Below, one piece after another: positions 2,901 through 54,441 of a stretch of 64,000 nt of DNA. The notes under the pieces were generated by a model that was not told the DNA's origin, ran no database searches, and saw nothing but the letters and a program-made list of their open reading frames with translations. How positions within the stretch are numbered: the first letter of the stretch is position 1; each line of letters starts with the position of its first letter. The position numbers were made by a program, and so were the translations under genes. Where the stretch lies: contig JADGJG010000020.1 of NCBI GenBank assembly GCA_027596195.1, positions 23,359-87,358 of the forward strand, read 5' to 3'. This DNA is from Podochytrium sp. JEL0797 (lineage: Eukaryota > Chytridiomycota > Chytridiomycetes > Chytridiales > Chytriomycetaceae).

Positions 2901-4667
<1,767 letters not shown>

Positions 4668-28804: not shown

Positions 28805-30392
28805 ATGAAAGTCATCGCCTCGACCCCCGCCACCAAACACAAACCCTTCATCTATGCCACCTTCGCTATCGTCCTCGTCTGCGTCTTCACCGTTGTGTTC
28901 CTCCAAGCCCAAATCCTCACCAAATCACTCGCGCCACTCCACTCTCCCTCAAATACCACAACTGCCTCCTCACGCACCTCACCAATAGCTGCCACCACTA
29001 CTGCTCCTGGCGACAAGCATTCACCGCTCCCCACTACCCCCACCGCCAAAACGTACCCTCACCTCGCCCTCGCGCTCAAAACTGGCGCTGAAACCGCAGC
29101 AAGCCGCTCCGCAATCCAACTCCTCACATTCCTCCAAGACGCAGCGAACGTGCTCGTGATTGCGGAGGCGCCGGGTGTCAAGATTGGCGGGGTAGATGTG
29201 GAGGACATGTATTCAGGGGTTTATGACCGGATTGAGGAGAAGATGAGGAAGGAAGGGAAGGAGAGGAGGGGGGATGCGGTGGAAGGAGGAACGGCGGAGT
29301 CGATGGGATGGTGAGTTTGTGTGGGGGTGGGGATCGGACTGGGCGAGTAATCCGACCGCTGACCAATTTTCAAATTTACCAAAACAAACAGGCAATTGGA
29401 CGCACACAAAAACTTGCCGGGGTTCCAGCTCTTGCATGAACGATTTCCAGACGCAGAATGGTACATACAAACGATTCTTTGGTTTCGTCGTCTCACAAAT
29501 TGACAGGTACATCATGTTTGACGACGACGCCTATGTCCTCCTCGACAACTATGCCGCACATTTGGCCACCTTGAATCCAGACGACGAGTGGTACCTCGGT
29601 CAACCGAACGTGTTTGCCGGTTGTGATGGGGTCACGAATTTCGGAGACGGGCCACTATTTGCGCAGGGCGGGGCGGGGATTGTTATTTCGAGGGGAGCCA
29701 TGAAGAAAATGGTTCCAGTTTTGGGTGAGTTGTAAAGATTGTGTTGTGGCTGTGAGGTTAAATGAAAGCTGATTATGTCCCAATTTCATCAGATAAGTGT
29801 ATTCTCAAATACAGAGACTGCTGGGCGGGAGACGTCCGTGTGGCTCTGTGTATGCGTGATTCTGGCGTTCTCATCACGCAAACAGACCAACTATACCAAA
29901 GCCCGTGAGTTTTTGCTCCCCCGCCTCTCACTTTCTTGCCAAGCCACCGTCTCACCAAAACCCTCCCCTCTCCTTTACCACAGACCAAACTCCGATTTTG
30001 AATACCCCGACACCCCATGCACAGAACCCCTCGTGTTCCACAAAACCCTCCCGCACCAAATCCAATCCCTCTATGATGCCCAACGCGCGACTCCATTCAA
30101 CCGAACGACATTTGCGGACAGTTACCACCACATGCATTTCAACAACACACTCTCCCGCGTTTCAGGGGACTTGAGGATTCGCAAAGACGCGCACATTGCG
30201 GGTGCGGAGAGGGAGAAGCACGAAACGGAGAGTGCAGAGTCGTGTTTGAGCGTGTGTGAGAGTATCAAGGACTGTGTGGCGTGGACTTGGAGGGAGAAGG
30301 AATGCGTGATCAAGTATGGACCCGGGAGGTTGGAGGGGCGGGAGGGAATGTGGGGTGGTGTTTTAGCGGAGAGGTATCGCTGTGAAAAGTGA
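28805..30392 (+). CDS. Fringe-like glycosyltransferase (GT31) with PAN-type module, copy 1
   Basis: Exons 28805-29310, 29392-29460, 29507-29724, 29793-29904 and 29984-30392 give 437 residues. It is a type II membrane protein: a short basic cytosolic start, one helix at about 17-39, then a Ser/Thr-rich stem. The catalytic domain has DAHKNLPGFQLL, the metal/UDP-binding DDD at about 197-199 (MFDDDAYVLLDN), AQGGAGIVISRGAM and CWAGDVRVALCMRDSGV, all Fringe/C1GALT signatures. The last 75 residues are a Cys-rich module (CLSVCES..DCVAW....C..K..PG, ending AERYRC) like PAN/Apple domains, which bind sugars or proteins. It should add a beta-1,3-linked sugar in the Golgi; donor and acceptor are unknown. 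Confidence 0.85.
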
Positions 30393-31406
30393 AGTTTGAA
30401 AGAGTTGGATCGGATGGGTTTGAAGTTCAAAAGTCGTACAATAAATATCATGCATGCATTAAATGCAGAAATTTGCAAATTTCTGATCCTCTGTGCAAGT
30501 GGTGCGTACAGCTTTGACAAACGCGGGGCCGAAATGCGAAACCAAAATCTTAGCGAATAACTTCGACTTCCCCTCTCAAATGGATGCTAAGGGAATCTGT
30601 CTGCATCTCTTGAAAACCAACGCTTTTCCCGACCCTTAACCAAAGATTTGTAAAAGATTACCTACTCGTTTGTTTGTGCGAGCGAAATTGCCAAAAATAT
30701 GAACATAAACCGTGGCTATTATTACCATGATCGGAGACCGGGGAGAGGCGAAGCCGCTCTCACCCAAGTGCCTCCGAGGCGCCACCTCGGATTGTTTTTA
30801 TAAAACGGAAAAGAAAAGAAAATGGTCTGTGAAAACAGCCCATCCCGGATGGTGTTTCGGAGGTAATCAAGTCTGAAACAAAAAACGAAATATATGGTGG
30901 CAGACCCATCAGTTCCTGGGGCGGAAACCATCATCTGGTACCCTAAAATCTTTGTTTAGCTCGCCAATGATGCAAATGGGGTAGTAGAAACTCCGATTAC
31001 AACCCTCTTTCTTACAATTAACAGGTGCATCATTTTTTACGACAATCCTCTCCTTGATAATTACGCCAATCGTTTGTCCAACTTGAATCCTTAAACAAGG
31101 AATGTAATCTCGTCCAACTGAATGCGATGGGGTCACGAATTTCGGAGACGGATTGACAACTTAGTGAACATGGCCTTGTTGGCCTTCTCCGCACGTGATA
31201 AAAAAACATTTCGGGTCAGTCGATTTTGCCGTTTGTGATTCCATCGAATTCCACGAGCATGAAGTTGATTCAAGTGAGCTTGCTGTTGGGAACGTATTGT
31301 ATTTTCTGAATTGCCTCCTACAAACTATTTGATTCGAGAAACCCTTTGGACTCAATTTCACAAGCTTTTTTTTGTTTTGACATTTTTTGAGAATTTTGAC
31401 GATTCC
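30393..31406. other. Intergenic region holding the GT31 relic
   Basis: Apart from the relic at 31012-31155, no coding sequence is supported. An AATAAA at about 30440 probably ends copy 1. The minus-strand frame 30934-30722 is short and unlike known proteins. Confidence 0.4.
31012..31155 (+). pseudogene. Relic of a GT31 exon
   Basis: This stretch parallels gene copy 1 at 29499-29650: the 3' end of its second intron (acaattaacag for acaaattgacag), then CIIFYDN.LLDNYA, SNLNP, and finally gatggggtcacgaatttcggagacgg, identical in copy 1. A stop follows NLNP and about 30 codons are missing in the middle. Nothing of the other exons is seen in the surrounding 600 bases. Confidence 0.75.
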
Positions 31407-32867
31407 ATGAAAGTCACGGTCCGCTGCGGCGCCGTCACCCTCGCCGTCCTCCTTCTCCTGGCATTCGTTCTCCTCGCAGCAATCCTCGCAACTCCATCAC
31501 CACCCCCCACCCACTTCCGCTCCGCCTCCGACGAATCCGAATCCGTTCCACCTACCCCTCGCGCAAAGAAGCACACCCACCTCGCCATCGCCCTCAAAAC
31601 CGGCTCCGAAACAGCCGCGTCCCGCGCCGCCATTCAACTCGTCACGTTCCTAAAAGACGCGGCCAATGTTATCGTTGTGGGCGAGGCGTCCGGATTCCGC
31701 GTGGGAGATTGGGAAATGGAGGATGTGTATACAGGGGTTTATGAGGCCACTGAGGAGCGGATTCGGAGGAATCGGACAAGGGGGTTGAGTAAGAGAGGGC
31801 TCGTGAAGGATCAGGTTGTGGCGGGACAGAGTGCCAAAACGAAGGGCTGGTGCGTTTAGATTAGTCATCAAGACCAGGGGGGTACGTGCCTTGGCTGACG
31901 CGTTTTTTTTAAAGGACCCTTGATGCGCACAAGAATCTGCCGGCGCTTCAGTTGTTGTATAATCGGTTTCCGGAGGCGGAGTGGTATCTTATGTTTGATG
32001 ACGATTCTTACGGTACGAAGCTTTTTTGTGGGCATACCGCAGTTCTGATGTTCGCCGAAACCAGTATTCTTGGACAACCTTTCAAACTACTTGAGCTCCC
32101 TTGACCCTGACGATCACCACTACATGGGCCAAGCGAACCGATTCAAAGGATGCGATGGTGTCACTGTTTTCGGACAAGGACCGCGTTTCGCACAAGGCGG
32201 GGCTGGGATTGTGATCTCGAGGGGAGCCATGCGTTCGATGGCTTTGATTTTGGATTCTTGTATTTTGAAGTATAAGGGGTGTTGGGCGGGTGATATTCGC
32301 GTGGGGTTGTGTATGCGGGATGCGAGGATTTTGGTTAAGCACAAGGATGGGTTTTTTGGGATACCGTGAGTATACTTCCAGCCATATTCACCACTGATAT
32401 TTCTAACGTCGAAAAAAATTAGTCCGAACGCGAATTTTCATTTCCCAGAAAACCCCTGCGCGACTCCGTTCGTCTTCCACCACTCCCTTCCCCACCAAAT
32501 CCAATCTCTGTACGACTCTGAAACGATCCAAAAACTAAACCCATCCTCGAACCTCGTGACCATGTCCGACATTTACCACCACATCCACCTAAACGACCCT
32601 CGATCAACCCTCAACACGCCACAATTACTGCGAATTCAAAACAACACGGACGTGCGTGGCAGGGCGGTCAAGTATCGCGATGTAGAGGATGCACGCGCGT
32701 GTTTGGAGTTGTGCGAGTTTGTGAAGGAGTGTGTGGGGTGGACGTTTGATGGGAAGGTTTGTTGGACAAAGAATGGGCCGGGGAAGATGGAGGCGAGGGA
32801 GGGGATGTGGGGTGGGGTGTTGGTAGAGAGGTATCGATGTAACGGTGGGGATGCGGAGAATGGATAA
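31407..32867 (+). CDS. Fringe-like glycosyltransferase (GT31) with PAN-type module, copy 2
   Basis: Exons 31407-31849, 31915-32012, 32065-32365 and 32423-32867 give 428 residues. Membrane helix at about 9-29, short stem, then the GT31 core with DAHKNLPALQLL, DDD at 176-178 (MFDDDSYVFLDN), GQANRFKGCDGV, AQGGAGIVISRGAM and CWAGDIRVGLCMRD. The C-terminal Cys module is complete (CLELCEFVKECVGW to VERYRC). It is the closest relative of copy 1 in sequence, yet its second intron lies two codons after DDD rather than before it, and copy 1's third intron is missing. So intron positions have shifted since the duplication. Golgi localisation is inferred from the type II layout. Confidence 0.85.
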
Positions 32868-33203
32868 TGGGGCGTTTCTGTTCATAGACTTCCAAGAGGA
32901 ATTATTTATGTGTGTGGGGTATATACGCGTCTGATCACCATCCACATTCTCGGTTGGGCCATCGGCTCGAGCAATCAAACAATATTTGGCGCAACAACAA
33001 ATTCTCCTTCCTTCTCGTAGGGACCACAGAATGATTTCTATTGTGCTCAATATTCTATCACATTCTTCATCAACTTTCAAAATCCCCACGTTGCCGACGA
33101 CTGTCCCAGGGCCTAAAAAACACCCGGCATGCAGATGGCCAAACACCCCCAATCACGAGACAAACCGCAGGGATCCCCCCCATCACTTCTCAAACTGCCA
33201 AAC
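32868..33203. other. Convergent intergenic gap
   Basis: About 335 bases between copy 2 of the glycosyltransferases and the Mpv17-like stop. No gene or repeat is seen; it should contain two 3' ends. Confidence 0.4.
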
Positions 33204-33836
33204 TCAAAACGCACCCTCTTGATACACAACCTCACTCTCACTCTCAGCCGCCAAACCCGCAATATACGCCGTCCACGCGATTCCCATGACGTTCAAAAAC
33301 GCGACTCTCGGCACGCCCGGCCGGATATACCGGAACGACACGAGGTTCACTGCGGGCCACACGCACCATGCGCTCGCGTACAGTTTCGGGAATTTTTTGA
33401 TCACGATATCGGTTGGAGATTTCCCTGGTTGAGGAGGGTTCACGTATGCGGAGGAGAAGTAGAGGAATGAGGCGAGGTAGGGTGGGCTGAAGACGAGTTG
33501 GTTGACGATGGATTTCTGGGCGGCGAGTTTGAGGGAAGAGCCTGAGGAGCCCATTGCTTTGTCGAGGAGGTGGAAGGCGGAGAGGAAGTACCATCCGTTG
33601 ACGAGGGAGCCAAAGGCTGTGAGTTTGAGGGTGCGTTCGTGGTCCCAGGTTGCGAGGGCGGAGGTGAGGGTGGGTGGGGGAGACGTGTGATCGTCATGTG
33701 AGTTGCGGAGGGTCAGAGGGGCGGGTAGTTTGACTTTGCCAGTCAGGATCTGTGCGGAGGTATCGCCGATAAAGAAGAAGGTTCCCGCTAGAAGAGAGGA
33801 CGAGAGGAGACTCGAGAAGGTGAGTGATGAGGTCAT
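33204..33836 (-). CDS. Mpv17/PMP22-family membrane protein, copy 1
   Basis: A single exon of 210 codons starting at the ATG whose complement ends at 33836. Four hydrophobic segments and the family hallmarks are present: an N-terminal SLLAGTFFFIGDTSAQ block (helix then GD..aQ), WDHERTLKLTAFG (D..R), and the C-terminal signature YASAWCVWPAVNLVSFRYIRP with W..WP..N...F. Members sit in peroxisomal, vacuolar or mitochondrial inner membranes (yeast Sym1, mammalian Mpv17) and form channels that help cells under metabolic stress. The compartment cannot be read here. A paralog starts 84 bases beyond, also on the minus strand. Confidence 0.88.
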   Translation of the reverse strand: MTSSLTFSSLLSSSLLAGTFFFIGDTSAQILTGKVKLPAPLTLRNSHDDHTSPPPTLTSALATWDHERTLKLTAFGSLVNGWYFLSAFHLLDKAMGSSGSSLKLAAQKSIVNQLVFSPPYLASFLYFSSAYVNPPQPGKSPTDIVIKKFPKLYASAWCVWPAVNLVSFRYIRPGVPRVAFLNVMGIAWTAYIAGLAAESESEVVYQEGAF

Positions 33837-33919
33837 GATTTTTTGCCGGAGCGATTCTGCAGCGATTCGGCGATTATTTTTTTTGATGACAAAATGATGA
33901 TTTTGAATGAGGTATTCTA

Positions 33920-34688
33920 TTACAGCTTGAATGAGATTTGTTGGAGAACGCGTTCGAGATCGCGATTCCACGTTTGCGGCTCCTTTGGTGATTCCGCGGC
34001 ACTCTGCGTCCAGTTTCCAGAAGTTGCGCCAATCCCCGCAACCCACACGCCCCAACACGGACCCAAAAACAGAAGCCGTCCCAGCCCAGGCGACACGAAT
34101 CGAAATGAAACAAAATTAACCATCGGCCAATAACACCATGCTGTGGCATAAAGCGGAACAAAGCTCGAACGAATCCCATCCCACACAGCGTGTTGTGATT
34201 GCGGATTCACGAATGCAGTTTGGAATGCGAGAAATGAGGACAAATAGAGGGGTGCGAAAAAGAGTTGGTTTGCGAGTGCTTTTGCCAATGCAGTTTGGAC
34301 ATTCTTTTGGAGTCCGATGCGACGATCGAGGAATCGAAAGAGGGTGAGGAAGTATGGACCATGGAGAGCGAATCCGAATGCGGCTGGGTTGCAAAGGGTG
34401 AGATGTGTCAGAGTGGGCTTGAGCGTGTGAACACCGCATGATTGGATCACGGCCCCAAATGCACTCGCTGAATCCAACTGAAACTCAACTCATTTTCAAA
34501 GTGCGATCATGATCCCAGACGGAGTGGGTATGAGTGTTGATATTGTTTGGATCCACTCCCAAGTGGGAGCCCAACGATTGCTGCAGGTTCAGGGATCCCG
34601 CCAGGGATTGGGCGGCCACATCGCCAGCAAAGAACACTGATCCCGCAATGACGGAAGACGAGAGCAAAAGCCGGAGTCGAAGAGCCAT
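33920..34688 (-). CDS. Mpv17/PMP22-family membrane protein, copy 2
   Basis: Two exons, 34688-34490 and 34383-33920, give 220 residues. The 106-base intron was placed by comparison with copy 1: after it the protein reads RTLKM|TAFGFALHGPYFL, aligning with RTLKLTAFG in copy 1. Family marks are VFFAGDVAAQ at the N-terminus and YATAWCYWPMVNFVSFRFVSP near the C-terminus. It has an extra 30 hydrophilic residues at the end. Head-to-tail with copy 1, which lacks this intron, so one copy has gained or lost it. The donor GTTGAG is weak, so the junction could be off by a few codons. Confidence 0.82.
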
Positions 34689-37565: not shown

Positions 37566-38704
37566 ATGCCTCCAACTTGTCAAGCAACTGTAGTACGCAC
37601 AAATCTACCCTGCACGAAACCAGCAAAAGAAAACGGATATTGTGGCGTCCACAAAAATCAAGCCAATAATGTTAGACGCAAGTCAGCTTCGGAAAGTGAG
37701 TACCTTGTCCCTTTCCTGCAGGAATCATCCTGACTCAATTTCATAATAAAGAGCCCGTTGGCCAGCGTATTTGTATGGCCACTATAGGAAACACAAATGA
37801 ACACTGCACGCATCCAGCAAAAGAAAACGGATATTGTGGCGTCCACAAAAATAAAGTCAGTGATGTGAAACACAAGTCGCCTTCACAAGGTGAGTACTGA
37901 CCCTTTCCTGGTCAAGTATCTCCACTTAATTTCTTGATAAAGAGCCCGCTGGCCAGCGTATTTGTATGGCCACTATAGGAAACACAAATGAACACTGCAC
38001 GCATCCAGCAAAAGAAAACGGATATTGCGGTGTGCACAAAAATAAAGTCAGTGATGTGAGACACAAGTCAGCTTCGGAAGGTGAGTACTGTCCCTTTCAT
38101 GCTCGATGCATCTAAACTTAATTTCTTGACAAAGAGCCCGCGAGCCAGCATATTTGCAAAGCCACCAATGAATCCAAAAACCGACAGTGTACAAATCCAG
38201 CAAAAGAAAACGGATATTGCGGCATCCACAAAAATTCGAAAGGATCCCATCATGATGCAGGAGATCGAGTGATTCCAGGCAGGGAGCCATACTGGAATAT
38301 CCAATACTACAAAGCACAAGTTGAAATGGGTCCTGTTCTTGATGATTGCATGGGTTACATTTACGTCAAAACTCAAATCGAGCCTGGAAATGAGAAGGTA
38401 AAAATTGGGCGTACGATCGATCTTGAGAAACGGCGTGTTGCTGGTTTAGAATATCGATGGAGTACGCCGAATATGGTGAAAAATCACCGCCGATTGGAAA
38501 AGGCTGTGCATCATTTATTGGATTCGAAACATATTCCGAAGGATTCACCGGAAATCAAAGTTATGGATGGTAGAACGGAATGGTTTGCTATAAGTAAGTT
38601 TTGTAGTTGAAAACTATTCATTTTAGAATCTCATCACTAAAATAGGCGTCAATGAAGCTAAAAATGCTATTCAGTGGGCGATGAGAGACCAATTATTTAT
38701 GTGA
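37566..38704 (+). CDS. GIY-YIG (T5orf172-like) protein with four Cys/His modules
   Basis: Exons 37566-37695, 37752-37889, 37943-38080, 38135-38593 and 38646-38704 give 307 residues. Each of the first four exons encodes one copy of a small module with the pattern C-x(9-10)-C-T-x-P-A-K-E-N-G-Y-C-G-[VI]-H-K, spacing suited to binding one zinc ion. The fourth exon continues into a GIY-YIG-type domain: GYIYV at about 209-213, VKIGRT near 224-229, R230s EKRR, and the conserved Glu in RRLEKAVHHLL. T5orf172/DUF1766 proteins are predicted nucleases found in fungi, phages and large DNA viruses. Nuclease activity and DNA binding by the zinc modules are inference. All introns here fall in phase 1, allowing modules to be copied as units. 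Confidence 0.8.
37740..38134 (+). repeat. Tandem duplication of an intron-exon unit
   Basis: Units of 191 bases starting at 37752 and 37943 are nearly identical, including the 138-base exon and flanking intron ends (gataaagagcccg...ggtgagtact). A third, diverged copy begins at 38135. The near identity of the middle two shows the duplication is recent. Confidence 0.88.
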
Positions 38705-39285: not shown

Positions 39286-40801
39286 ATGCAATGCCTCCAA
39301 TCCCTCACCCGCCTTCTCCCCCGCCGACGCCGCCTCTTCCTCCCCACTCTCATCACAATCACTCTCCTCCTCGTCCTCTCCACATCCCTTCCCCCTCTCC
39401 CCACCGCACCACCCCTCCATATAACCCCACGATCGAACCTCACCCACCTTTTCGCCAACGCCACCATCGCCGCCCGCATCCTCTCAAAAACCAACCCAAC
39501 CTACAACCGCTTCGCCATCGCCCTCAAATCCGGATCTGAAACGTTCCCACTCCGCACCCCGGCACAATTCGACACGTTCCTCGCACGCGCAAGGAATGTT
39601 CTCGTGGTTGGAGAGTCGGACGCTGTCTCAGAAGTTCATGGGAGGAAAATGTGGGATGTGTATCATGGTGTTGCGGGAGACGCGAGGCGGCGGTTGGGCG
39701 AGAAGGGGGTCAAGGTTGCGGAGGGGAGGAAGGGCAAGTTGAAGTTGGATATGGGGGACGGGGTTTCGGATGTGGTGGTTGGGGGTGGGGATGCGGGGGG
39801 GAAGAGTGCAGAGGATACCGGAAAGGCGGGGTGGTTTGGGAATGAAGGGTGGCGGGCGGATGCGCACAAGGTTTGTTTGTTTGCGGTTTCGAAATTGCGA
39901 TCTCATCTGACACGTTTTTGTTTTTAGAATTTGCCCGCATTTGTGCTGTTGTACAACACTTTCCCTGATGCAGAATGGTACATTATGATTGACGATGATT
40001 CGTACCTCTTTCTTGAATCCCTGCACCGCCTTACACAACCCCTCAACCCGCTTCGCGCACACTACCTCGGCCAAGCCAACAAATTCCAAGGATGCGACGA
40101 CATTACACGCATGGGTGCAGGCCCTCCCATCGCACAAGGCGGGTCCGGAATCGTTCTCTCGCAAGGAGCCATGCGAGTCCTCTTGAACCGCGTGGATACG
40201 TGTATCGTGCAGTACGAGGAGTGTTGGGCGGGGGATATACGCACGGCGTTGTGTTTGAGGGACGGTGGGGTGAGGTTGACGCATGCTCGCGGGTTCAATG
40301 GGTGGCCGCCGCAAGAGAATTTTGTGTTTTCGGAGGAGGCGTGTGAAGTGCCTGTAACGTATCATCATGTGCTTCCTGAGCAGGTTAGTGTGTGTGTGGG
40401 TGTTTGCCTGTATGCATTCTGGGAATACCGCGTCGAAAACTGACTTGGGAAATCCACAAACACAACAGATGTACAAGCTTCACGAAATCGAAACCTCCAC
40501 ACCTCACGCCCAACTAACCTCTGCCCACATGTACCACACATTCCTGCATCCCCTCACCGACACCACTGCAACGCAATTCCGCGACCGCAACACGGAACGA
40601 AAGGGCAAGCCGTACAAAAATTTTCGCACTTCCACATTCGAGGAATGCGAACGCGCTTGTGTGCGCGACACGCGGCGCTGTGTGAGTTGGTTTCATGACG
40701 ACAAGAAGCGGTGTTGGTTGAAAAAGACGCCAGGTGGGAAGGATGGGAAGGTTGGGGTGTGGAGTGGGGTGATACCAGGGAGGTATATTTGTCAAAAGTA
40801 A
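39286..40801 (+). CDS. Fringe-like glycosyltransferase (GT31) with PAN-type module, copy 3
   Basis: Exons 39286-39870, 39928-40383 and 40469-40801 give 457 residues. A very basic start (LPRRRRLF) precedes the membrane helix at about 20-35, orienting it as type II. The stem is long and Gly-rich (GGGDAGGKS). The core has DDD at 217-219 (MIDDDSYLFLES), GQANKFQGCDDI, AQGGSGIVLSQGAM, CWAGDIRTALCLRDGGV. Unlike copies 1 and 2, the whole core after DAHK is one exon, and the linker plus Cys module (CERACVRDTRRCVSW...PGRYIC) is a separate phase-0 exon starting at the conserved MYKLHE. That exon border is shared with copies 4 and 5. Donor and acceptor sugars are unknown. Confidence 0.85.
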
Positions 40802-40867
40802 TAATATAGAATCAACACGGAGAAGAATATGTTTATCAGACTTTGAGAATTCGAGGATAAGGACCGT

Positions 40868-41338
40868 ATGTGCAGCTGGCTGGCCTCGTCAAGATTCTAC
40901 AGGAGAAGCTGGATGCCAACATAATGGAGCCAGGGTTTGGCAGCTACAGTGCATCCTTCTTCCTTGTCCCCAAGAAGGATGGAGCGTTGCGGTTTTTTCA
41001 GGATCTCCAACCGCTGAACGCAGTCACTGTCCGCGATGCTGGTGTCCCGCCTGCTGTTGAAGAGGTTGTCAACGAGTACACTGGGCTCGCCATCTACTCT
41101 CCTCTGGATTGCCACTTGTGGTACGATCAGTTCACGCTTCACCCAGATTCGCGCGACCTCACGGCTATTACTACGCCGTTGGGTTTGATGCGGATGGTCT
41201 CTCTCCCTCAAGGTTGGACAAACTCGGTCGCTATCAACAGACTCGACCAATCCCAGAAAATGAATAACCGGGCTCCTTGCAGGCAAGGAATGACGCGAAT
41301 TCAACTCTTGATGCAGGGAGCACTGCGATGCAGGTCTT
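40868..41338 (+). mobile_element. Truncated Ty3/gypsy reverse transcriptase relic
   Basis: An open frame of about 156 codons matches the N-terminal half of a Ty3/gypsy reverse transcriptase: a leading LQEKLDANIMEPGFGSYSA block, FFLVPKKDGALRFFQDLQPLN, VTVRDAGVPP, YSPLDCHLWYDQ (with the first catalytic Asp), HPDSRDLTA..TPLGL and LPQGWTNS. It ends before the YxDD box; RNase H, integrase, gag and LTRs are not seen nearby. The frame is still open, so the fragment is either young or by chance unbroken. It cannot move by itself. Confidence 0.85.
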
Positions 41339-42619: not shown

Positions 42620-44180
42620 ATGCAAATTCGACACCGACTCCTCGCGGCGCTTGGAATCCTGGTTACGTTCCTTGGTCTCTTTGAGCTCGCCACCAACCTC
42701 TCCCTGGGACCCACCACCCCAAAGCCTGTGGAATCCACCTTTTCCAATGCCACGTTTGCCGTTGCCGTCAAAACGTCTCATTCGCGCATGTACGACACGA
42801 TCCCGATCCTCATGGCCACGTCCCTGGTCTCCCTCGATGCACGCACCCTCGTCCTCGGCGACGTGGGCAACTCGTTCGTGGGCGGCGTGGCCATCGTCGA
42901 TGTGGTGACGGGGCTTTACGACAAGACCAAGAAGCGGCTGCTGCACAAACAGGACCTGAACGACGAGGCCATTCCAGAGTATCTGATCGACAGTGCGGGC
43001 GAGGATGCAGAGTTCCACGATACGACGCAGTTTGATGCGAATGTGCGGTTGAGGAGGAGGAATCCCGTCGAGAAGGCGGATGACGAGGTGTATACAGACA
43101 AGAAGAAGGCGGGCGATCTCGTGGTCACGAAAGAGTATTCGTCGCATGTCGATCCACACAAGAACTTGGCGGGGCTGCAGCTGTTGTATGAAAAGTTTCC
43201 TGACACCGATTGGTTCCTGTTGATCAACGATGATACCACGGTGGTATTTCACAATCTGAGGCATTTTATCAAACATTTGGATCCCGAGAAGCCGTTTTAT
43301 ATTGGAAAACCGACCGACTGGAAGGTGTGTTTCAGTGTGGGACTCATTCTCGAAACTGACGCCTGAACAGCGGACTTATGATTACTAATCGTTGATTTGG
43401 TGGTTAATAGGGATGTGACGGCGTCACACAGCCCGGTGAGGGTCCCGTGATTGGAATCGGTGCGTCTGGAATCCTCGTTTCGAGGGGAGGCATGAAGGCC
43501 CTCTCGGTCGTGATTGAATCATGTATTCTCAAATACAGCACCTGTTTCGGTACGTTTTTCATTTGTGTGTGCCATGCATCCCGTTCCCGTATGTTAAGAG
43601 TCTTTTTTGACTCTAGGTGGAGATATCCGCACGGGCCTCTGTTTCCGCGACGCTGGCGTCAAACTCACATGGGAAAACAACTTCAACCTCGAACCCCCGT
43701 TTGGCGAAGAGTTTACATACCCGGACGATCCATGCGATGTTCCGCACACGTTTGGCGCGTCGTTGGCGGAAGATGTGAGTTCAATTCATATTTTGGCACC
43801 ATCTTGATACTACCGCATGCTTACAATTATGTTGCCAGATGGTTCAAATGTCCACCCTCGAACACCTGCACTCCCAAAAACACCCCCACACCCCACTCAC
43901 CATGGGCCACCTCTACAAAGCCACCTCCAACGCCACAACCTCGCTCGTCAAACACAACATGGATCGACCCGGTGGAGCGTACCGCGTCCTTCGAATTGGT
44001 GACGCGCAGTCCTGCGAATTGGCGTGTCGACGCGATCGTAAGAAGTGCGTCGCGTGGGTCGTGGATTATAGCAAAAAGTGCTTGTTGAAGACGACCCCGG
44101 GGAGGATGAAGAAGCGGAAAGGGGTGGTGAGTGGGGTGTTGGTGGAGAGGTATACGTGTCGAAGGAAATTGGATTTGTGA
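42620..44180 (+). CDS. Fringe-like glycosyltransferase (GT31) with PAN-type module, copy 4
   Basis: Exons 42620-43324, 43411-43549, 43617-43774 and 43839-44180 give 447 residues. A type II helix lies at about 7-24. The metal site reads NDD (LLINDDTTVVFHN, residues 203-205) rather than DDD, so one ligand has changed. Other core blocks are GCDGVTQPGEGP, IGASGILVSRGGM and CFGGDIRTGLCFRDAGV. An intron splits CFG|GDIR, exactly as in copy 6, and both share the FYIGK/YYIGK..WKGC block, so copies 4 and 6 form one subgroup. The Cys module is complete (CELACRRDRKKCVAW to VERYTC). Catalysis is less certain than for copies 1-3 and 5. Confidence 0.83.
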
Positions 44181-44690: not shown

Positions 44691-46275
44691 ATGCGGAAAC
44701 CACTGCAACTTTTCACCATCGCTGCCGCCTTGCTCCTCTTTTGCTTTCTGCTGTCCCGCCTCAGCCAGATGGTTCGATCTGATCCCTTCCAACCTGAAAC
44801 CTGGCCAGAGAAGGAAGCCAAGATCCGGGCACTTGATAACCAACCGATGCCGCTTGACAATCACTTGGTACCTGCGAATACCCAACCAGTGGATCGTCTT
44901 CGGATGCAAGATGACCATCCAGCACCACTCCCGCCAATCAACGTGAGTGAAATTCAACTTAACTATTTTTGAGTCAAGCCTTACCCTTTTGTTTAGAAAC
45001 AACAACACCACCAAATGCGCTTCTCCCGCCTCGCCGTCGCCCTCAAATCCGGCCACGAAACCCTCCTCACGCGTGTCCCCATGCAACTCCTCACCACGCT
45101 CTCCCTGATTCCGAATTTGGTTATTGTGGGGGACACGCAGGGGTGGATAGCGGGTCGGGAGATGGTGGATGTGTATTCTGGGGTGTATGAGCGCGTGAGG
45201 GAGCGGGTGGGTGTGGGGAGGACGGTGGTGGAGAATGTGGGGAGGGTGCAGAAACGTGTCGTTGGTGGGGAGAAGGGGGTGAATCGGGTGGTGAGTGGGC
45301 AGGAGGTGAAGTCGAACGGATGGTAGAGTTGTTTTTTCTCCAATTGCATTGCTGGAGATCCACGAGGGCTGATTCATGAACTTCTGCAGGGTCACTGACG
45401 CGCACAAAAACCTTCCCGGGTTCCAACTGCTCGTTGACACATTTGCGGATATTGAAATCGACTGGTACATTATGATTGACGACGATTCCTACGTCTTCTG
45501 GGACAACCTCGAACTCTACCTTTCGACCCACGACCCTTCCGTCCCATACTTCACGGGCCGCAACAACTACTTCAAAGGATGCGACGGTGTCACCAATTTC
45601 AAAGACGGGCCTTACATCGCTCAAGGCGGCTCCGGAATTGTCATTTCACGTGGTGCGATGCTCCTCATGCGGGAAGGATTGGATGAATGTATTTTGAAGT
45701 ATGAGACGTGTTGGGCGGGGGATATAAGAACTGCGTTGTGCTTGAGAGATGTGGGGGTGAAGGTTACGTGGGGGGATGGGTTTTATCAGCACCCGCCGGG
45801 GGAGGAGGTTGTGTTTCCGGAGGAAGGGTGTGAGAGGGTGAATGTGTTTCATCATGTGTTGCCGGAGCAGGTATTACAATCTTCGCCCAACTGATTCTGA
45901 TCCAATTCTGATTCTCCTTCATTGTAGATGCAACAACTCTGGCAAATCGAACAATCCACTAAATCCCCCTCCACAAACCGCACACTCACCCCCATCGCAT
46001 CCATCCACAACGCGTTCCTCGGCAATACATCCACACGGATACCAAACCATACGCGTACGGGAGTTTACGACTTCAAAATCGTGACGGCGGTTCCTGACGC
46101 GTCCGTGTGTGAACGCGTTTGTATGGGAGAGAGCGGGTGTGTGTCGTGGACTTTTGAGGTGGGTGCGATGCGGTGTGGGTTGAAGAAGGGTATTGGGGCT
46201 TTGAAGGTGGAGGTAGGGTGGGAAACGGGGGTTGTGGGTGGGAGGTATTTGTGTGAGGGGAATCTCAATAGTTGA
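44691..46275 (+). CDS. Fringe-like glycosyltransferase (GT31) with PAN-type module, copy 5
   Basis: Exons 44691-44942, 44997-45322, 45390-45870 and 45928-46275 give 468 residues, the longest single-domain copy. Type II helix at about 6-22 followed by an 80-residue stem, part of it in a separate first exon. The core is canonical: VTDAHKNLPGFQLL, DDD at 223-225 (MIDDDSYVFWDN), YFKGCDGV, AQGGSGIVISRGAM, CWAGDIRTALCLRDVGV. The linker and Cys module (CERVCMGESGCVSW to GRYLC) form the last exon, as in copies 3 and 4. All expected catalytic residues are present, so it is a good candidate for an active Golgi enzyme. Confidence 0.86.
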
Positions 46276-46640: not shown

Positions 46641-46744
46641 GTTGGGTTGCAGACGGGAATTATAACGAAACCCTTAAATAGAGATTAAAAAGATTTTTTT
46701 CAATATTAATAATAATATCCGCCTGACATCCGCCCTATCCTCGC

Positions 46745-48058
46745 ATGGACCCGCCCCCTCGTCTTCTGCTCCCATCCAATGCCGAGATTTTTGCGCTCCT
46801 CTCTCGGATTGCCGCCAACCAGGAAAGACTCGAGTTGCAGCTCAAGCAACAAGCGGCCTTAACGGACTCTCGCCTCGAAGCTCTCGAATCTTCCTTGTCT
46901 CGACAATTGAATCAGACCTCCCTCAACCACCGCCAAGTTTCCATCCAACTCCTTCAACTTCAGAACCCGTCCAAGAAGTTCTACACTCGCTTCAGTGACC
47001 TTCCTTCCGAGGTTGCCCTTTTGATCGTGGCCTGGATCTGCCCCAAGCAAGTCTGGAAGCTACGTGGTCTGTCTCGATCCTTCCGCGCGTGCATTGGATC
47101 CCTGTCTTTCGCCTCTCTCAACCTCCACCGCTTCCTTCCCCCTCCTGACCCGGCCATCACCAAGTCCCTCGAACCATCCGAACACGACATCACTTTCCTA
47201 TCCAACTCTCCTCCTTCCTACCAGACCACGTACTTTCGAAGACAATGGAAGAATCTCAGTACAATCTGTTGGGGAATCACGGAAGACGGGCACCGTGTCG
47301 TTCAAGTCGCCCACCCTCCCTCGCTGCGGCTGCAGCTGCCAATTCTTGCCGTTGAAATGACGCATCTGGTCCATTTGGCCCTCCTCGGATGCAATCTCGC
47401 ATGCACCATTCCCGTTGAAATTGGAAACCTCGAATGCCTGCAACAATTGCGATTAATTGGCAACTGCCTCCAGGGCCCCATTCCTGCCATCATTTCCAAC
47501 CTCAAACAGTTGAAGGAGTTGTGCTTGCAAGGAAATCGTCTGTCTGGCGCGATTCCAGCGGAGTTGGGTGACCTCTCGAACCTCACTGGCGTGTGGTTGA
47601 GCAACAACAGACTGTCAGGTGCATTGCCAGCATCATTTGGTTCGCTCACCAAACTCAAACAGTTGTATCTTGGCCGAAATCTATTTTCTGGATCTATCCC
47701 ACGCGAGTGGGGCACCCTCACGAGTTTGGAAGCCCTCTCCCTCGAAGAAAACAGGGAGTTGACGGGTGAAATTCCGAAGCAACTTGGAAATCTCACTGCA
47801 CTTCAATACTTGTGCCTCGGAACCTGCAACCTCTTTGGACAGATTCCACGCGAGCTCGGTCAACTCGTGAATTTGGAACATTTCGAACTGAGTTGGAACG
47901 AGTTGCTGTCTGGTGAGATTCCCGCAGATTTGGCAGCATTGGAACATTTGGAGACATTTGATGTGAGTGGGTGCCCGGACCTCTCATGTTCTGTGGAATT
48001 TGGAGAGGGCGTGTTGCTTTGGGGAGAAGATTCGGAGGAATCGGGAGACGAGGGGTGA
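46745..48058 (+). CDS. Coiled-coil, F-box and plant-type LRR protein
   Basis: An intronless 437-codon gene. Residues 15-75 are a heptad-rich helix (LLSRIAANQERLELQLKQQAAL), residues 80-120 an F-box (FSDLPSEVALLIVAWICPKQVWKL), and from about 200 come nine LxGxIPxxLGxLxxL repeats, for example RLSGAIPAELGDLSNLTGVWL. The end is acidic (EDSEESGDEG). Like the gene at 8753 it looks like a cytosolic SCF substrate receptor, with the coiled coil perhaps for dimerisation. The repeats are of the extracellular plant type although no secretion signal is present, which is unusual for F-box proteins outside early fungi. An inverted, broken copy follows tail-to-tail, and a relic precedes it. Confidence 0.83.
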   Translation: MDPPPRLLLPSNAEIFALLSRIAANQERLELQLKQQAALTDSRLEALESSLSRQLNQTSLNHRQVSIQLLQLQNPSKKFYTRFSDLPSEVALLIVAWICPKQVWKLRGLSRSFRACIGSLSFASLNLHRFLPPPDPAITKSLEPSEHDITFLSNSPPSYQTTYFRRQWKNLSTICWGITEDGHRVVQVAHPPSLRLQLPILAVEMTHLVHLALLGCNLACTIPVEIGNLECLQQLRLIGNCLQGPIPAIISNLKQLKELCLQGNRLSGAIPAELGDLSNLTGVWLSNNRLSGALPASFGSLTKLKQLYLGRNLFSGSIPREWGTLTSLEALSLEENRELTGEIPKQLGNLTALQYLCLGTCNLFGQIPRELGQLVNLEHFELSWNELLSGEIPADLAALEHLETFDVSGCPDLSCSVEFGEGVLLWGEDSEESGDEG

Positions 48059-48193
48059 CTCTGATGATTCGAAGCGCTTTGAAGCGAAGCAATAAGCGCA
48101 TTTATTCATATAAAACATTTCATGCCCACTCGTTTTCGACTTCAGAGTCACCGCCATCTTCCGAATGACCTTCGTCTTCCGATTCCTCCGGCA

Positions 48194-49396
48194 TCAATCC
48201 TCCCACAACACACCATCTCGAAACTCCACAGAACTCGAGATATCAGGACACCCACGCACATCCAGCAAAACAAAGTTTTCCAATGCAGCCAACTCTGCGG
48301 GAACCTCGTCAGACATCAACGCGTTCCCCTCCAGTTTCAACTGACGCAAGTTCGCGAGTCGACCAAGCTCGGGTGGAATCTGAACCAACAAGTTGCAGTT
48401 TCCGAGGTACAATGTTTCCACTGCAATGAGATTCCCGAACTCGTGTGAAATTTCGCCAGTCAAATCCTTGATTTCTTCGAGGAATAGCGTTTGCGAATTC
48501 TTGAGGGCTCCCCATTCGCGTAAAATTACCAAGAGAAGAAGGCAGTGTGCCCGATAGCTTCACCCAACTCGGCGGGAATTGGGCCAGACAGTCGATTTCT
48601 TTGCAGCCACAGCTCCTTCAACTGTTTGAGATTGGAAATGCTTGAAGGAATGGGGTCTTCGAGACGGTTGTTCCCCAAATCCAACTCTTTGACGGAGACG
48701 AGGCTTCCAATTTCGACGGGAATTGGCCCCAGAAATTGCATCGGACGAGGGACAAATGAACCAGATGCGTCATTTCAGTAACAAGAATTGGCAGATGCAG
48801 GACGGGAGGATGCGAGACTTGAACGAAATCGTATTCTTCCGTGATTCCCCAACTGAGTTTCTTGAGGTGCTGCCATTGGACTCGAAAGTACAAAGTCTGG
48901 TAGGAAGGGAGGGAGTTGTCAAGGAACGTGAGGTCGTGTTCGGATGGTTCAAGGGACTTGGTGATGGTGGGGTCGGGTGGAGAATGAAGCGGTGGAGGTT
49001 GAGAGAGGCGAAGGAGACGGATTCGATACAGTCGCGGAAGGAGCGAGAGAGGCTGCGGCGCTTCCAGACTTGCTTGTGGTGGACCCAGACCAGGATCAAA
49101 CGAGCAACCTCGGAAGGAAGGTCACTGAAGCGAGTGTCGAATTTCTTGGACGAGTTCTGCAGTTGGAGAAGTTGGAGGGAAACTTGGCGGTGGTTGAGGG
49201 AGGTCTGATGCAATTTCTGGAACAAAAAAGACACGAGAGCTTCGAGGCGAGTGCTGGCTTCGTTGGCGTGTTTGTCGAGCTTCCCTTCGATTCTCTGCTG
49301 GTTGGCTGCGACTTTCTCGAGTTGAGAAGCCTGCTGGGTCACGAGGGCAAAAATGCCTGCATTCGATGGCTGCGGAGGAGAGGTCGACGAATCCAT
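48194..49396 (-). pseudogene. Inverted LRR/F-box pseudogene
   Basis: On the minus strand the ATG at 49396 opens a frame with the same coiled coil and F-box as the gene at 46745 (FSDLPSEVARLILVW). The frame shifts near 48972, where intact LHRFLPPPDP becomes LHRFILHPTP, and again near 48745. A stop occurs near 48527 (GHTAFFSW) and about one and a half LRRs are missing there. The last frame, 48532-48194, still encodes SRSLLE-type LRR ends and CPDISSSVEF. Three separate lesions make it a pseudogene. It may still form antisense or inverted-repeat RNA with its partner. Confidence 0.82.
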
Positions 49397-49752
49397 TGAA
49401 ATCGGGTTACGTACAGATGTCTCCCTTTTTTACGAATTTATGATTTTTTTTTATTTCTCCCACCTTCCTCCCACAATACTTCTTTACCTTATCAAGGGAA
49501 GAAGAATGATTAGAAAACTTTTAATGCTGCCCAGCCAACAGGGAGCTCAGCGTTCGCTCTCATTTCCTCCAGAGGTGGAATCACTCGACAGGAATCGGAC
49601 CACAGAGCATGTTCTTGTGCAAGATCGATATACTCAACTGTTTGAGTTCGGAAATGGATCGAGCTCTCTTCAGGTTTCTGTAAGTTGAAATTCACGTGCG
49701 AACCCAACCGAATGAAATTTTTGATTTTTTCAATCTCCGCTGCGAAATAAAG
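49397..49752. other. Intergenic, no supported gene
   Basis: Contains a 65-codon minus-strand frame (49707-49510) that looks protein-like (FRTQTVEYIDLAQ) but matches nothing I know. It may be a fragment of another gene. The right end is the promoter of the next glycosyltransferase. Confidence 0.35.
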
Positions 49753-51189
49753 ATGCGGCTCCGCAAAGGGGTTCTCCTGACCTCCTCAGCCTTCTTCACC
49801 ATCATCCTCCTCCTCATCCTGAGATTTCAAGATTCCTCGAATCCTTCACACCCTCTTGTGGTGTTCGAGCGCCAGCTTCCCCTCGACCACTACCACTCAC
49901 GACATCCCTCCATCGCCGTGGCTGTCAAATCGACTTCCTCCAATCACCGATCGCTGCTCAAAGCACAGCTCACCACGTTCCTTAATGAAGTCGAAAACGT
50001 GTTGATCGTGGCCGACGAGAATGGCGAGGTACTTGGCAGACCAATGGTCGATGTCTTCACACCCACCCAAAACACATGGACGAGAGTACATGAAGTCGAG
50101 GACGAGTATGCCGGATACAAGGCCGTACAATTCAACGAGAAGAGTGAACCTCACGGGGAATTTGACCCCGATTCGCGGTTACGCAAGAAACGAAGCTCAC
50201 GAAACCCCACCACAAGGGACCCGCATACGAGTTTACCCGCACTTCGAATACTTGCGCGCACGTTCCCGCAGAGTGATTGGTTCCTGTTGATCCCTGATAC
50301 GGCGTTCGTTGCGATGGGAAATTTGGAATCCCTGGTCCGGCGGTTGAACCCGAACCGCGCGTATTATATTGGGAAAGCGGTGAATTGGAAAGGATGCAAT
50401 GGTGTCGAGCGGCTTGGAGGTGGGGGGAAGGTGGCGTATGGGGGTGCCGGGGTGTTGATGAGTCGAGGGGCAATGCAGCGGTTTCTTGGGAGTGTGGAGG
50501 ATGGGATGGACAAGTATCGCGATTGTTTTGGTGAGTTTTGGATTGCTTCTTTATTTGCAGTTGATTGAGGTTTATTCTGATTGCAGGTGGCGATATTCGA
50601 ATTGGATTAACGATGCGTGACGCGGGCGTCCAAGTGAGGGGGGTGGATGGATTCTTTATGGAGGGGTTCAATGCGGATCCATGCAAGAAACCTATTGTAA
50701 TTGGGCAAGTGGAAGAATCGGAGGTATTCACACTGCGGGGCCGAAACAATCCGCCGAATTCTAAACCCGCCCACACGCGAAAACATTTAGATTCTTCAAA
50801 TCCACACTGCCGCGCAGGATTCTCCCCAAATCAAGAGCAAATCCGTGACCAAAAATATGGGAACTGTGTTTCAAGCCATTTATACCAATTCCAGTGGCCT
50901 CATACGAACAGGTCACTCCCACGCTGTAATTATTGTCTCACACCTCCGCTGACACGCGCGCGTTCCAAAAACAGATCTAGATCGACCCGGCGGTGATTAC
51001 GGCGACTGTGAAACTCAAACCGCGGCTGAATGTGAAAATGTGTGTCGCGGAATCAAAGAGTGTTTGTCGTGGGTGCATGTCCCTGGGTTTGGGAATAAGT
51101 GCATCTTGAAACGGTCAGTTCAGCCAGGAAGGATTGCGCAGGGGTTCACGAGTGGGGTGTTGGTGGATCGGTATCGATGTCATAAATAA
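49753..51189 (+). CDS. Fringe-like glycosyltransferase (GT31) with PAN-type module, copy 6, metal site lost
   Basis: Exons 49753-50530, 50587-50723, 50791-50911 and 50975-51189 give 416 residues. Type II helix at about 8-24. The region that should hold DxD reads WFLLIPDTAFVAM (P181-D182-T183), so two of three acidic residues are gone, and the next block is VAYGGAGVLMSRGAM. CFG|GDIRIGLTMRD is interrupted by an intron at the same point as in copy 4. The Cys module is intact (CENVCRGIKECLSW to VDRYRC) and shares DRPGG with copy 4. The third intron's donor (GTCACT) is weak. Probably a non-catalytic paralog kept for binding or partnership, unless an alternative metal ligand is used. Confidence 0.78.
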
Positions 51190-51259
51190 ATAAAGGTTTT
51201 AGATTGCATACAAGGGATGAAGGTGATGGAACGTGCGCAAAATGGAGGCTGTATTGATT

Positions 51260-52132
51260 TCATGCTCTGCGCTCCCACACTACACAGGCCTGGTCATACA
51301 AATCCCCCTTCCCATCCTTCGCCGTCCAACCCAACCCCGCCAAAACCTCTCCCAAGCAAAACAATCCCAAATACGGCGCATGAAGCCGATCATAACACTC
51401 AAACGAAACGCGTCTCAATCGCGTCCTGGGTAACACTTGCAAAAACCGCTGAATCCCCAACTCCCAGAGGGCCGCATTCGTACCGTCAAACACTTCGAAT
51501 ACAGCTTCTCGCAACGCAGGGCTTGACTGAAACGCGTGGAACGGAATCAAATCGTCGAATCGGAAACAATTGAGTCTCTTCACGTTGCCGAGGGACAGTA
51601 TGGCTTCGAATTCGTCTTCGGCCAAAGCGTAGGGGATGTCAAGTTGACGAATCGAATGTCCAGATTGAATCACAAACGCGAGAATGCTCAGAATAGAGTC
51701 CAGTCCGCGGTGGGTGCCGCGATCGGGGGATATCAAGTCCACTGTTTTCGTCAACACGGGAAGAATCGAGCGCGTGTATGAGATGGAATGCATGGGGATC
51801 CGAAACACACCTCCGAAACGCGCGAAAAGGTGGGAATGGGTTTGAAGGAGGGACAAGTGGGCCGTGGGAATTGGAATGGGAGCGTCTTGGTCGTTGGTGA
51901 GCAGTGTCAAGTCGGGCCATAATTCGTGCAGAGACATTTGGAGAGTCATTCCGACGGTTTGTAGAGTGTGAGATGCGTGTTTGAGTGAAGGGAGTGCGTG
52001 GCAGAGACGAAGAAAGCTCGTTGGGCATAGAAAGGAGGCGATGCAGTTCACAATTTCAATTGGAATAAGTTCGAATGACTGTGTGGCGACTCTGTTGGCT
52101 TGTGCGGGTAAGAATATCTGCGTGGAAGTCAT
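51260..52132 (-). CDS. F-box-like protein, unknown target
   Basis: An intronless 290-codon gene. Near residue 20 the sequence ELIPIEIVNCIASFLCPTSFLRLCHALPSL fits the F-box consensus (LP.E....I...L......L..vc....). The rest is helical with scattered leucines but no clear repeat; conserved blocks shared with the pseudogene at 16467 are LHELWPDL, RFGGVF, VLTKTVDL and ALREAVFEV. It may recruit proteins to an SCF ligase. Its start lies only 37 bases from the end of the upstream glycosyltransferase gene on the same strand. Confidence 0.6.
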   Translation of the reverse strand: MTSTQIFLPAQANRVATQSFELIPIEIVNCIASFLCPTSFLRLCHALPSLKHASHTLQTVGMTLQMSLHELWPDLTLLTNDQDAPIPIPTAHLSLLQTHSHLFARFGGVFRIPMHSISYTRSILPVLTKTVDLISPDRGTHRGLDSILSILAFVIQSGHSIRQLDIPYALAEDEFEAILSLGNVKRLNCFRFDDLIPFHAFQSSPALREAVFEVFDGTNAALWELGIQRFLQVLPRTRLRRVSFECYDRLHAPYLGLFCLGEVLAGLGWTAKDGKGDLYDQACVVWERRA

Positions 52133-52169
52133 TCGTTTTTGTTTTGAGAATGTTTTGGTTTGTATTCCG

Positions 52170-54441
52170 TCAGGACTTTCTCCCCGCGTCCCCTTCCCGC
52201 ACGCATTTCACATCCGTATCTAGCGCTCTTCCACCACCTTGGTAAATATCTGAAATAGAGACAACCGCCTGATATCCTCTGATTCGCTCGGTTTCGAGTT
52301 GATGCAGCTCTTGGATTTGCGTCGGGGTCGCGTTGTGAATCACAAATGCGAGTTGACATGGGTCCCGCGTGTGGCGTTCGGATTCAACAGACGACCTATA
52401 TTCAATGCATAAGTCAGAAACTTCACTTTGCATTCACTCAAGAAAGAGAAGGGCCTTACAGGTCGCGATATGATCCAGGATGCATGTCTTGGTTCAATGG
52501 AACTCCGACGCTCTGCAAACACAACTCCACCGTCATGTACTCTGCCATACACTTTTTTAAACTTGGCGCAATTCTCCACACGGCGGCGTTGGAAATCACA
52601 ATCGCCGACGCTGCCGCAGGTCTTGGTGTACCATCAGAGTCGAAGTATTCGGGGACAGCCACAGAGCCTCCAATATATTGCGGAATATTCGGGTCCAAGT
52701 TGTCGAGAAGGGAAGCGAGATTGTCGAGGAATGCGTACGCGTTGTCTGGGAGGAGGAGGTAGAAAGGGGCATCTGGGTCGCGTTCGTGCAGAAATTGAAG
52801 CGATGGAATTTGAATTTGCACATGCGCGTCTCTAAAACCAGGGAAGAGGGAAAGAATTAAAATGAGGAAAACTTGGGGGGAAACCCCAAACCGATTGCTC
52901 TCCACTGTCGCCAAAGCCTCCAACCTCTTCCCTAACCCTTCCACCTTCACATCCCCAACATAACTCTCATCTAGCGCAACCACAGTTAGATTAACCCCTT
53001 TCAAAAACGTTGTCAACTGAATTGGCACGCGCAACACAGCCGACGAAGGATCCGTGAGTAACACGATGGCGAGATCGGGGTACCGGCCCAAGTCTGGTTT
53101 TTGAATTTCGGTGGGATTGACGGGCTTGGGTGGTGTTGTGATGAAGGAGTAGAATTTTTGGTATACGTGTAGCATGGTCACGCTGGCATATTGTTGCTTT
53201 GTGGATGATTCCAGCTCAAACATGAGCTGCATCTGTAAAACAATGTATGAGCGTTGGAGTGTGAGTTTGGGGTACATACCTGAAGGGGACTCATTTTGTG
53301 AAATACGGATGGCAGCTCAGCCGAATCCATTGAGAATTGGAACTGGGAGTGTTTGTCGATAAGCTCGTCAATATATCTCTCCACCACTTACATTATAATC
53401 AGGCGGAGACCCATGAAATCCAACCATCCGTTGGTCCATCATGACACCTGCATCTCTCAAGCAAAGCGCGACCCGCACGTCCCCTGCCCAGCAAGAGTCA
53501 TACTTCACAATGCAGCTGTCGAGAATCGGGAGCATTTTGCGCATGGCGCCTTGCGAGAGAATGATTCCGGAACCTCCTTGAGCAAACGAGGGACCGTCTC
53601 CGGGGGTTTTGACTCCGTCACTGTTTTTGGATTAGTGTTTGCGGCCCCATTTCTGCAATTACCATCCAGTGAAATGATTCGCTTGTCCGAAATACAAAGC
53701 CTCCGACGCGTTAAAAGCCTTCAAATGGGAATCAATATTGTCCAATAGTGCATACGAATCGTCATCCAGCATGAGGTAAAACTCGGCGTTTGGAAATTTG
53801 TCATGCAAGGCGCGAAAACCGGGCAGATTCTGTTTTGGTTGCCCATTAATTGCCTCAAACGCGTTTACACGATCGAAATACAAACAAAAAACCTTGTGTG
53901 CATCCCTCGACCATCCCTCTGACTTCTCCGAAACCGTGGCTCCAATAACGTCTTTCACGAAACCATCGTGCTTCCCACCTCTCCTCAGAAATCCGACATG
54001 CTCTTCGAACTGCATCTGATCCCGGCTTCCTTCACCCGCCAAAAAATCTGCACCCCCAATCTCCCCCTTTGAGCGAATTAACCTCCGTTTGGCGTGTTTC
54101 AGCGCGTCTGTCAACACGTCCACCATCTCCCATGTCCCGACGAAGGCGTTGCGGTCGCCAATAAGGATCGTGTTTGATGCATGCGGTTGAAGGAACGTGA
54201 TGAGCTGGATTGGTGTTCGGAAGAGAAGCGTGTCGGCGCCAGTTTTGAGAGCGATCGCGAGACGCGGGTGGTTCGGGGCGTGTTGACGTTGTTGTTGGGG
54301 CGGAGTGGGTTGCTTATTTGGGAAGGCCCGGAGCGCAGTGAAGCCGCTATATCTAAGGAGGGAGATTATAGAGAGACAGAAGAGGAGTGATTTGAGGAGG
54401 GCGAGGACGCGTTTCGGGGGTGGTGCGAGGATTTTTGCCAT
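52170..54441 (-). CDS. Double-domain Fringe-like protein (GT31-GT31), no PAN module
   Basis: Exons 54441-53893, 53829-53663, 53620-53392, 53342-53280, 53232-52892, 52831-52460 and 52395-52170 keep one frame of 648 residues. A membrane helix at about 13-30 makes it type II. Domain 1 is canonical: DDD at 205-207 (MLDDDSYALLDN), AQGGSGIILSQGAM, CWAGDVRVALCLRDAGV, then the linker VFHKMSPLQMQLMFELE. Where other copies have the Cys module, a second GT31-like unit begins (PDLAIVLL..DPSSAVLRVPIQLTTFL) with the usual intron before DAH. Its metal motif is LLPDNAYAFLDN, and the GGSGI and WAGDIR blocks are degraded. A second linker (VIHNATPTQIQELHQLE) ends the protein. Domain 2 is likely a binding or structural pseudo-enzyme. 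Splicing across the domain junction needs transcript proof. Confidence 0.72.

Follow-up and report, generated by a model that had tools for sequence, protein, structure and literature searches.

A 64,000-nucleotide stretch of DNA from Podochytrium sp. JEL0797 (the window; NCBI locus tags in the HDU98_ series) contains an array of seven related glycosyltransferase genes, which we call A to F and HG. Each of genes A to F joins a core from glycosyltransferase family 31 (GT31, of the Fringe/DUF604 type) to a C-terminal PAN/apple domain, and HG fuses two cores. We consider it probable that the array is an old and conserved set of inverting GT31 glycosyltransferases of the Golgi type (type II membrane proteins). 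This reading is based on the sequences, the fold of gene C, conserved motifs, grouping with genes from other species, and selective constraint. The fused HG gene, the loss of metal ligands in the pair D and F, and the hypothesis of a galactofuranose donor with a linked UDP-galactopyranose mutase (UGM) gene are new points.

Exon pieces of seven cores passed the Pfam cut-off for Fringe (21 bits), with scores of 46.1 (A), 22.2 (B), 34.5 (C), 28.8 (D), 47.1 (E), 32.6 (F), and 33.1 bits (H, the first half of HG); the second half, G, had no Pfam match in the profile scan. The predicted structure of gene C, the only gene used for the fold search, has a GT-A fold that resembles solved GT31 enzymes, and profile matches in PDB were to GT31 enzymes and apple domains. 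At the C terminus, C, E, and F passed the curated PAN cut-offs; A, B, and D scored under them but are assigned to PAN because the family alignment keeps five cysteines, which are invariant in 30 of 30 aligned sequences. Because the core filled the list of fold matches for full-length gene C, with few PAN rows, we folded its PAN domain separately, and the fold search then found a PAN fold. A first-pass annotation had proposed six pairings of a GT31 core with a cysteine-rich, PAN-like module, and these results bear out both halves of the proposal. It had also described a terminal motif, [V/A/I]x[E/D/G]RYxC. The motif does end all six PAN genes, but its first position is L, I, or V ([LIV]x[EDG]RYxC). 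All seven PAN_4 matches in the Podochytrium genome fall in GT31-PAN genes.

We assembled the spliced models manually, following splice signals and reading frame; every intron is GT..AG and the phases are consistent. This method is supported by genes A and C, whose models are identical, letter for letter, to NCBI proteins P0017 (HDU98_004304) and P0019 (HDU98_004308). A search of the genome (24.4 Mb in 995 contigs), with the best candidates scored, gave at least 12 family loci, including five outside the window (C987, C513, C575, C712, and C260). With 7 of these 12 or more loci inside 26 kb, the clustering is not due to chance. The first-pass annotation counted seven genes and one relic, mostly in tandem. 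Its six GT31-PAN genes and the clustering stand, but H and G, which it listed separately, are one gene, and there is an additional relic between A and B. This 136-bp relic is 69% identical to exon 3 of A across 155 columns (E = 7e-14, blastn); its spliced alignment score (163) was barely above the maximum from 20 block shuffles (154), and the blastn match is decisive. "Mostly in tandem" is a loose description because the intergenic gaps (1014, 6418, 1818, 510, 3477, and 980 bp along the array) hold open reading frames (ORFs) from other families: Mpv17/PMP22, MFS, T5orf172, a weak reverse transcriptase, and leucine-rich repeat (LRR)/F-box. The C260 copy has five frameshifts and one stop in its alignment, so copies of this family have been lost as well as gained.

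H and G share a single open spliced frame of 648 amino acids, in which an intact core is joined to a degenerate one, and NCBI's HDU98_004312 (P0089, 446 amino acids) is an exact suffix of this model, matching its structure from the DDD exon onward. For these reasons, G is not a separate relic but part of HG. One 60-bp intron was adopted from HDU98_004312; a 668-amino-acid version that retains this intron underlies one of the protein searches, the tree, the motif alignment, and the count of N-terminal stretches described below. H continues past an intron position that is common to C, D, and E, through a short linker, and into the second core; we saw no PAN domain and no second membrane anchor between the two cores of the model. 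A protein from Obelidium (P0090) has an N terminus like that of H, but it does have a PAN domain. The likeliest origin of HG is a deletion that joined two neighboring genes.

Protein searches identified at least 111 proteins. Among the matches listed, the named homologs are mostly from chytrids, with others from Sorochytrium, Gonapodya, Hyaloraphidium, Basidiobolus, Saitoella (Ascomycota), and Acrasis, and the GT31-PAN combination extends beyond chytrids to Basidiobolus, an ascomycete, and a heterolobosean. Of 107 homologs from outside the window, 91 have one of the PAN cysteines (C407) at the aligned position (15 gaps, 1 Ser). Since the architecture is found across many chytrids and other organisms and C407 is so widely kept, these comparisons indicate that GT31-PAN is a standing family, widespread in chytrids and not peculiar to this Podochytrium locus. 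For instance, QVD99_005110 from Batrachochytrium dendrobatidis and HDU81_006713 from Chytriomyces hyalinus have the same two domains and motifs, and chytrid GT31-PAN proteins are 33 to 50% identical to C or E. In contrast, among the 111 or more proteins listed, we saw three features in Podochytrium alone: the array of seven genes, the fused gene HG, and the loss of metal ligands from D and F.

As the first-pass annotation had suggested, we placed the genes in a phylogeny with those of other chytrids and outgroups (66 rows: 54 homologs hand-picked from the 107, the 8 cores in the window, and 4 other copies from the genome). B grouped with proteins from Siphonaria and Obelidium (100/99) and C with proteins from Rhizoclosmatium, Obelidium, Siphonaria, and Chytriomyces (100/100); E joined Rhizoclosmatium and Siphonaria with weaker support (97/79). 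D is sister to F (99/98), and A groups with three other Podochytrium loci, C987, C513, and C575 (100/96). F, G, some outgroups, and partly D are on long branches. Three Siphonaria proteins with consecutive locus tags (007557, 007558, and 007559), each listed with a contig of 26,205 bp, belong to the C, B, and E groups, respectively. Similarly, HDU77_009024 of C. hyalinus belongs to the C group and 009026 to the A/B group (contig of 13,381 bp), and the B-group and C-group proteins of Obelidium are both listed with a 248,776-bp contig.

We also estimated ratios of nonsynonymous to synonymous substitution rates (dN/dS) with YN00, which gave no value for several pairs. For A versus C987, dN/dS was 0.08 to 0.10 in the core, 0.24 to 0.25 in PAN, and 0.70 in the stem; for A versus C513, it was 0.20 in the core and 0.54 to 0.73 in the stem; and for A versus B, the core gave 0.15 and PAN gave 0.55. 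A versus C575 was saturated. These ratios indicate that the array is under purifying selection. Because B, C, and E group with other genera, the Siphonaria tags are consecutive, and no computable dN/dS exceeds 0.73, the array as judged from sequence is old and conserved, with recent duplication in the A lineage only.

The accessible text of a study of C1GalT1 (PMC9065035) gives Asp181, Asp183, and His324 as the ligands of Mn2+ and Asp255 as the catalytic base; these align to Asp217, Asp219, His341, and Asp298 of gene C. We counted motifs over the 107 homologs, fragments included. The DDD motif is present in all 107, a count that is biased upward because searches by shared words favor conserved members. 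The metal-binding His is retained in 92 (13 gaps, 1 Cys, 1 Asn) and the base Asp in 101 (5 gaps, 1 Gly). In the alignment of the window's cores, A, B, C, E, and H have the DDD motif, the C-terminal His, and the base Asp. D has NDD and F has PDT, each with Gly in place of the His, and both keep GD; G has PDN and keeps the His, and its GD is absent.

All seven array genes have N-terminal hydrophobic stretches, and we infer a Golgi location for their products. The active enzymes, which from their motifs should be A, B, C, E, and H, would use a UDP-sugar and Mn2+, with the metal held by the DDD motif and the C-terminal His and with the Asp of GD(I/V) acting as the base. The most likely role of the PAN/apple domain is to bind the acceptor, a glycan or glycoprotein, and thereby to steer the enzyme. 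That these five enzymes belong to separate, old lineages suggests that they differ in acceptor or linkage, acting on related glycans of the cell surface. D and F would be retained copies without catalytic activity and most likely serve as partners or chaperones, by analogy to known pairs: CHPF partners CHSY, and Cosmc partners C1GalT1.

Several points weigh against this reading. Support for the E group (97/79) is slightly under the mark for strong support, the deep backbone of the tree is weak (19 of 63 inner branches are open), and the placement of H lacks resolution. The Siphonaria assembly is flagged UNVERIFIED_CONTAM by NCBI. We infer that the array is common to Chytriomycetaceae, the family of both Podochytrium and Siphonaria, from locus tags and matching contig sizes, not from DNA. 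The partner role of D and F is putative, and their loss of ligands could instead mean metal-independent catalysis.

As a refinement of the reading of the array as conserved GT31 enzymes, they might add beta-galactofuranose to glycans of the wall or surface, in a manner similar to GfsA of Aspergillus, with UGM supplying the donor. UDP-galactofuranose is our favored candidate for the donor, and plausible, but this is tentative. Every array core except G has Gly before the catalytic Asp, as do 100 of the 107 homologs (5 gaps, 1 Ala, 1 Leu), and the surrounding motif V, C[WF][AG]GD[IV][RK], is found in 100 of the 111 proteins listed. The available part of PMC11538602 describes the residue that precedes the base as Asp or Glu in other GT31 enzymes and suggests that the Gly of GfsA may characterize galactofuranosyltransferases. 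In a profile alignment, the GD and HH of GfsA fall on the GD and HH of the array family, unlike C1GalT1 (ED), CHSY3 (ED), and B3GLCT (DD) at the GD site. Also, Chytridiomycota are predicted to have UDP-galactofuranose and to lack UDP-GalNAc in the text available from PMC8092308, whose sampling may or may not have included Podochytrium.

The window also contains a UGM gene, which we propose to be in the same pathway as the array. It was not matched by Pfam's GLF family; it was detected as a eukaryotic-type UGM via NAD_binding_8 and confirmed against PDB, where exon 4 matched solved UDP-galactopyranose mutases (2e-140). It is the only UGM locus that we found in the genome besides a copy on contig C248. 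Positions 1 to 10000 of C248 are collinear with contig C113 (the first 5.2 kb of the window and the preceding 4.8 kb) at 98.4 to 98.6% identity, so the second copy seems to represent an allele-like contig rather than a second gene; the assembly apparently holds some second haplotypes.

On the other hand, GfsA is not the nearest relative of the array proteins by fold or by profile; its structure (8yrl) aligns to the predicted structure of gene C over 260 residues. The Gly may mark a subfamily rather than a sugar, because a distant homolog from Galdieria also has GD, as do plant DUF604 proteins. UGM is 24 kb from the array, with unrelated ORFs between them (acyltransferase, RecQ-like, GPCR-like, and GH20), and A and H have HK instead of HH.

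It seems unlikely that D, F, and HG are functionless pseudogenes in decay. They have lost metal ligands, F, G, and partly D are on long branches, HG is without a PAN domain, and the genome does contain other decaying copies (C260 and the relic between A and B). However, the models of D, F, and HG have no stop or frameshift, albeit with hand-chosen introns, and the frames of D and F are open over 447 and 401 codons. When we mutated D and F at random to 20% divergence (300 copies), just 0.7% and 0.3% of the copies, respectively, were free of stops. The differences between D and F are most frequent at third positions (197, 150, and 246 of 385 at first, second, and third positions). D and F have apparently outlasted the loss of their ligands, since both keep all five PAN cysteines and GD and share the change from His to Gly. 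The NG86 estimates for D versus F were dN = 0.69 and dS = 2.4, the latter near saturation. With this caution, and given that the searches favor conserved homologs, we read D and F as retained proteins that are predicted to be non-catalytic. Loss of catalytic metal ligands with the frame retained, as in D and F, is a feature expected of a pseudo-glycosyltransferase partner similar to CHPF or Cosmc, and human CHPF shows a similar change in the motif (VPDTTY).

If both proposals held, this would be a galactofuranosylation locus, in which UGM makes UDP-galactofuranose, the old GT31-PAN lineages each add the sugar to a different acceptor, selected through the apple domain, and D and F are partner subunits similar to CHPF or Cosmc but independently arisen. 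As a whole, this combination is doubtful.

The first-pass annotation viewed the array as a diversifying surface-glycan system; a recent diversification of this kind we consider very unlikely. Its anatomy of the locus is right apart from minor corrections, but most of its evolutionary reading lacks support. In favor of recent diversification, the A lineage has duplicates (A, C987, C513, and C575) that are restricted to Podochytrium, and both PAN and the stem, where dN/dS reaches 0.73, are looser than the core. But B and C group with proteins of other genera at strong support, dN/dS is nowhere above 0.73 where it could be computed (averaging could mask a few selected sites), and the N-terminal anchors suit Golgi enzymes.

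Least probable of all is that these are core-1 O-glycan synthases (T-synthases), which add beta-1,3-galactose to GalNAc; UniProt gives this name to several members of the family. We rejected this identity because the acceptor contacts of C1GalT1, given as Tyr218, Ser220, and Glu254 in the accessible text of PMC9065035, are not conserved (F/I/V/M in 105 of 107, with 2 gaps; H/Q/N in 104, with 3 gaps; and Gly in 100, respectively) and because UDP-GalNAc is predicted to be lacking in Chytridiomycota (text available from PMC8092308). Since a GalNAc-transferase would need both a GT2 and a ricin-type lectin domain, we also looked for their co-occurrence: they were never on one contig (8 and 6 contigs, respectively), which is weak evidence as the contigs are short.

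The array proteins also differ from characterized systems in their architecture. C1GalT1 (7q4i) is without PAN. GfsA possesses its own beta-sandwich domain (PMC11538602), and the array has PAN. The chondroitin polymerase CHSY3-CHPF has longer chains and no PAN match. The likeness to the PAN/apple domains of factor XI, kallikrein, and the lectins SML-2 and TgMIC4 is by fold only, and here the domain is fused to a glycosyltransferase. Searches of open-license literature, judged in part by title and the start of the abstract, gave no paper on GT31-PAN or on chytrid glycosyltransferase family 31. GT31-PAN proteins are present in many chytrids, including the amphibian-infecting Batrachochytrium, and the names we saw for them are "hypothetical" or automatic; the evidence counts against the automatic T-synthase label and offers a testable donor. 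D and F would provide a natural example of inactive glycosyltransferases maintained next to active paralogs.

Table 1. Coordinates of the array genes and related features in the window
Feature	Position	Strand	Description
UGM gene	3006..4667	+	4 exons, 497 amino acids (aa); open model; 24,138 bp upstream of gene A
Gene A, GT31-PAN	28805..30392	+	5 exons, 437 aa; HDU98_004304; FDDD, GDV
Relic of A-like exon 3	31016..31151	+	blastn
Gene B, GT31-PAN	31407..32867	+	4 exons, 428 aa; FDDD, GDI
Gene C, GT31-PAN	39286..40801	+	3 exons, 457 aa; HDU98_004308; IDDD, GDI; structure predicted
PAN/apple domain of gene C	40574..40798	+	folded separately
Gene D, GT31-PAN	42620..44180	+	4 exons, 447 aa; metal ligands partly lost (NDD, with Gly for the C-terminal His); GDI and PAN Cys retained
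Gene E, GT31-PAN	44691..46275	+	4 exons, 468 aa; IDDD, GDI; NCBI HDU98_004310 covers part
Gene F, GT31-PAN	49753..51189	+	4 exons, 401 aa; metal ligands lost (PDT, with Gly for the C-terminal His); GDI and PAN Cys retained
Gene HG, whole	54441-52170	-	7 exons, 648 aa; no PAN
H half of HG	53280..54441	-	intact GT31 core; LDDD, GDV; no PAN
Remainder of HG (end of H, then G)	52170..53232	-	G, the second core, is degenerate (LPDN, GD absent); no PAN

A subtelomeric location was considered and rejected: there is no TTAGGGTTAGGG (with at most 1 mismatch) within the window, though the window reaches the contig end. Upstream of the array are a GH20 (hexosaminidase-type) gene (24110-25630, + strand) and three similar ORFs in tandem (20300-23327, + strand), two of which were scanned and match 7-transmembrane receptor families. 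Between B and C are two adjacent ORFs that match Mpv17/PMP22 (33204-34489, - strand) and an ORF with T5orf172 (GIY-YIG-type) and DUF5763 (38122-38607, + strand). A weak reverse transcriptase match between C and D (40861-41337, + strand; 21.7 bits, versus a cut-off of 29.6) is possibly the remnant of a retroelement. LRR ORFs are found both outside the array (8489-9730) and inside it (46727-49429); the ORF at 46727 matches F-box and LRR families, with similar ORFs on the opposite strand at 48194-49429.

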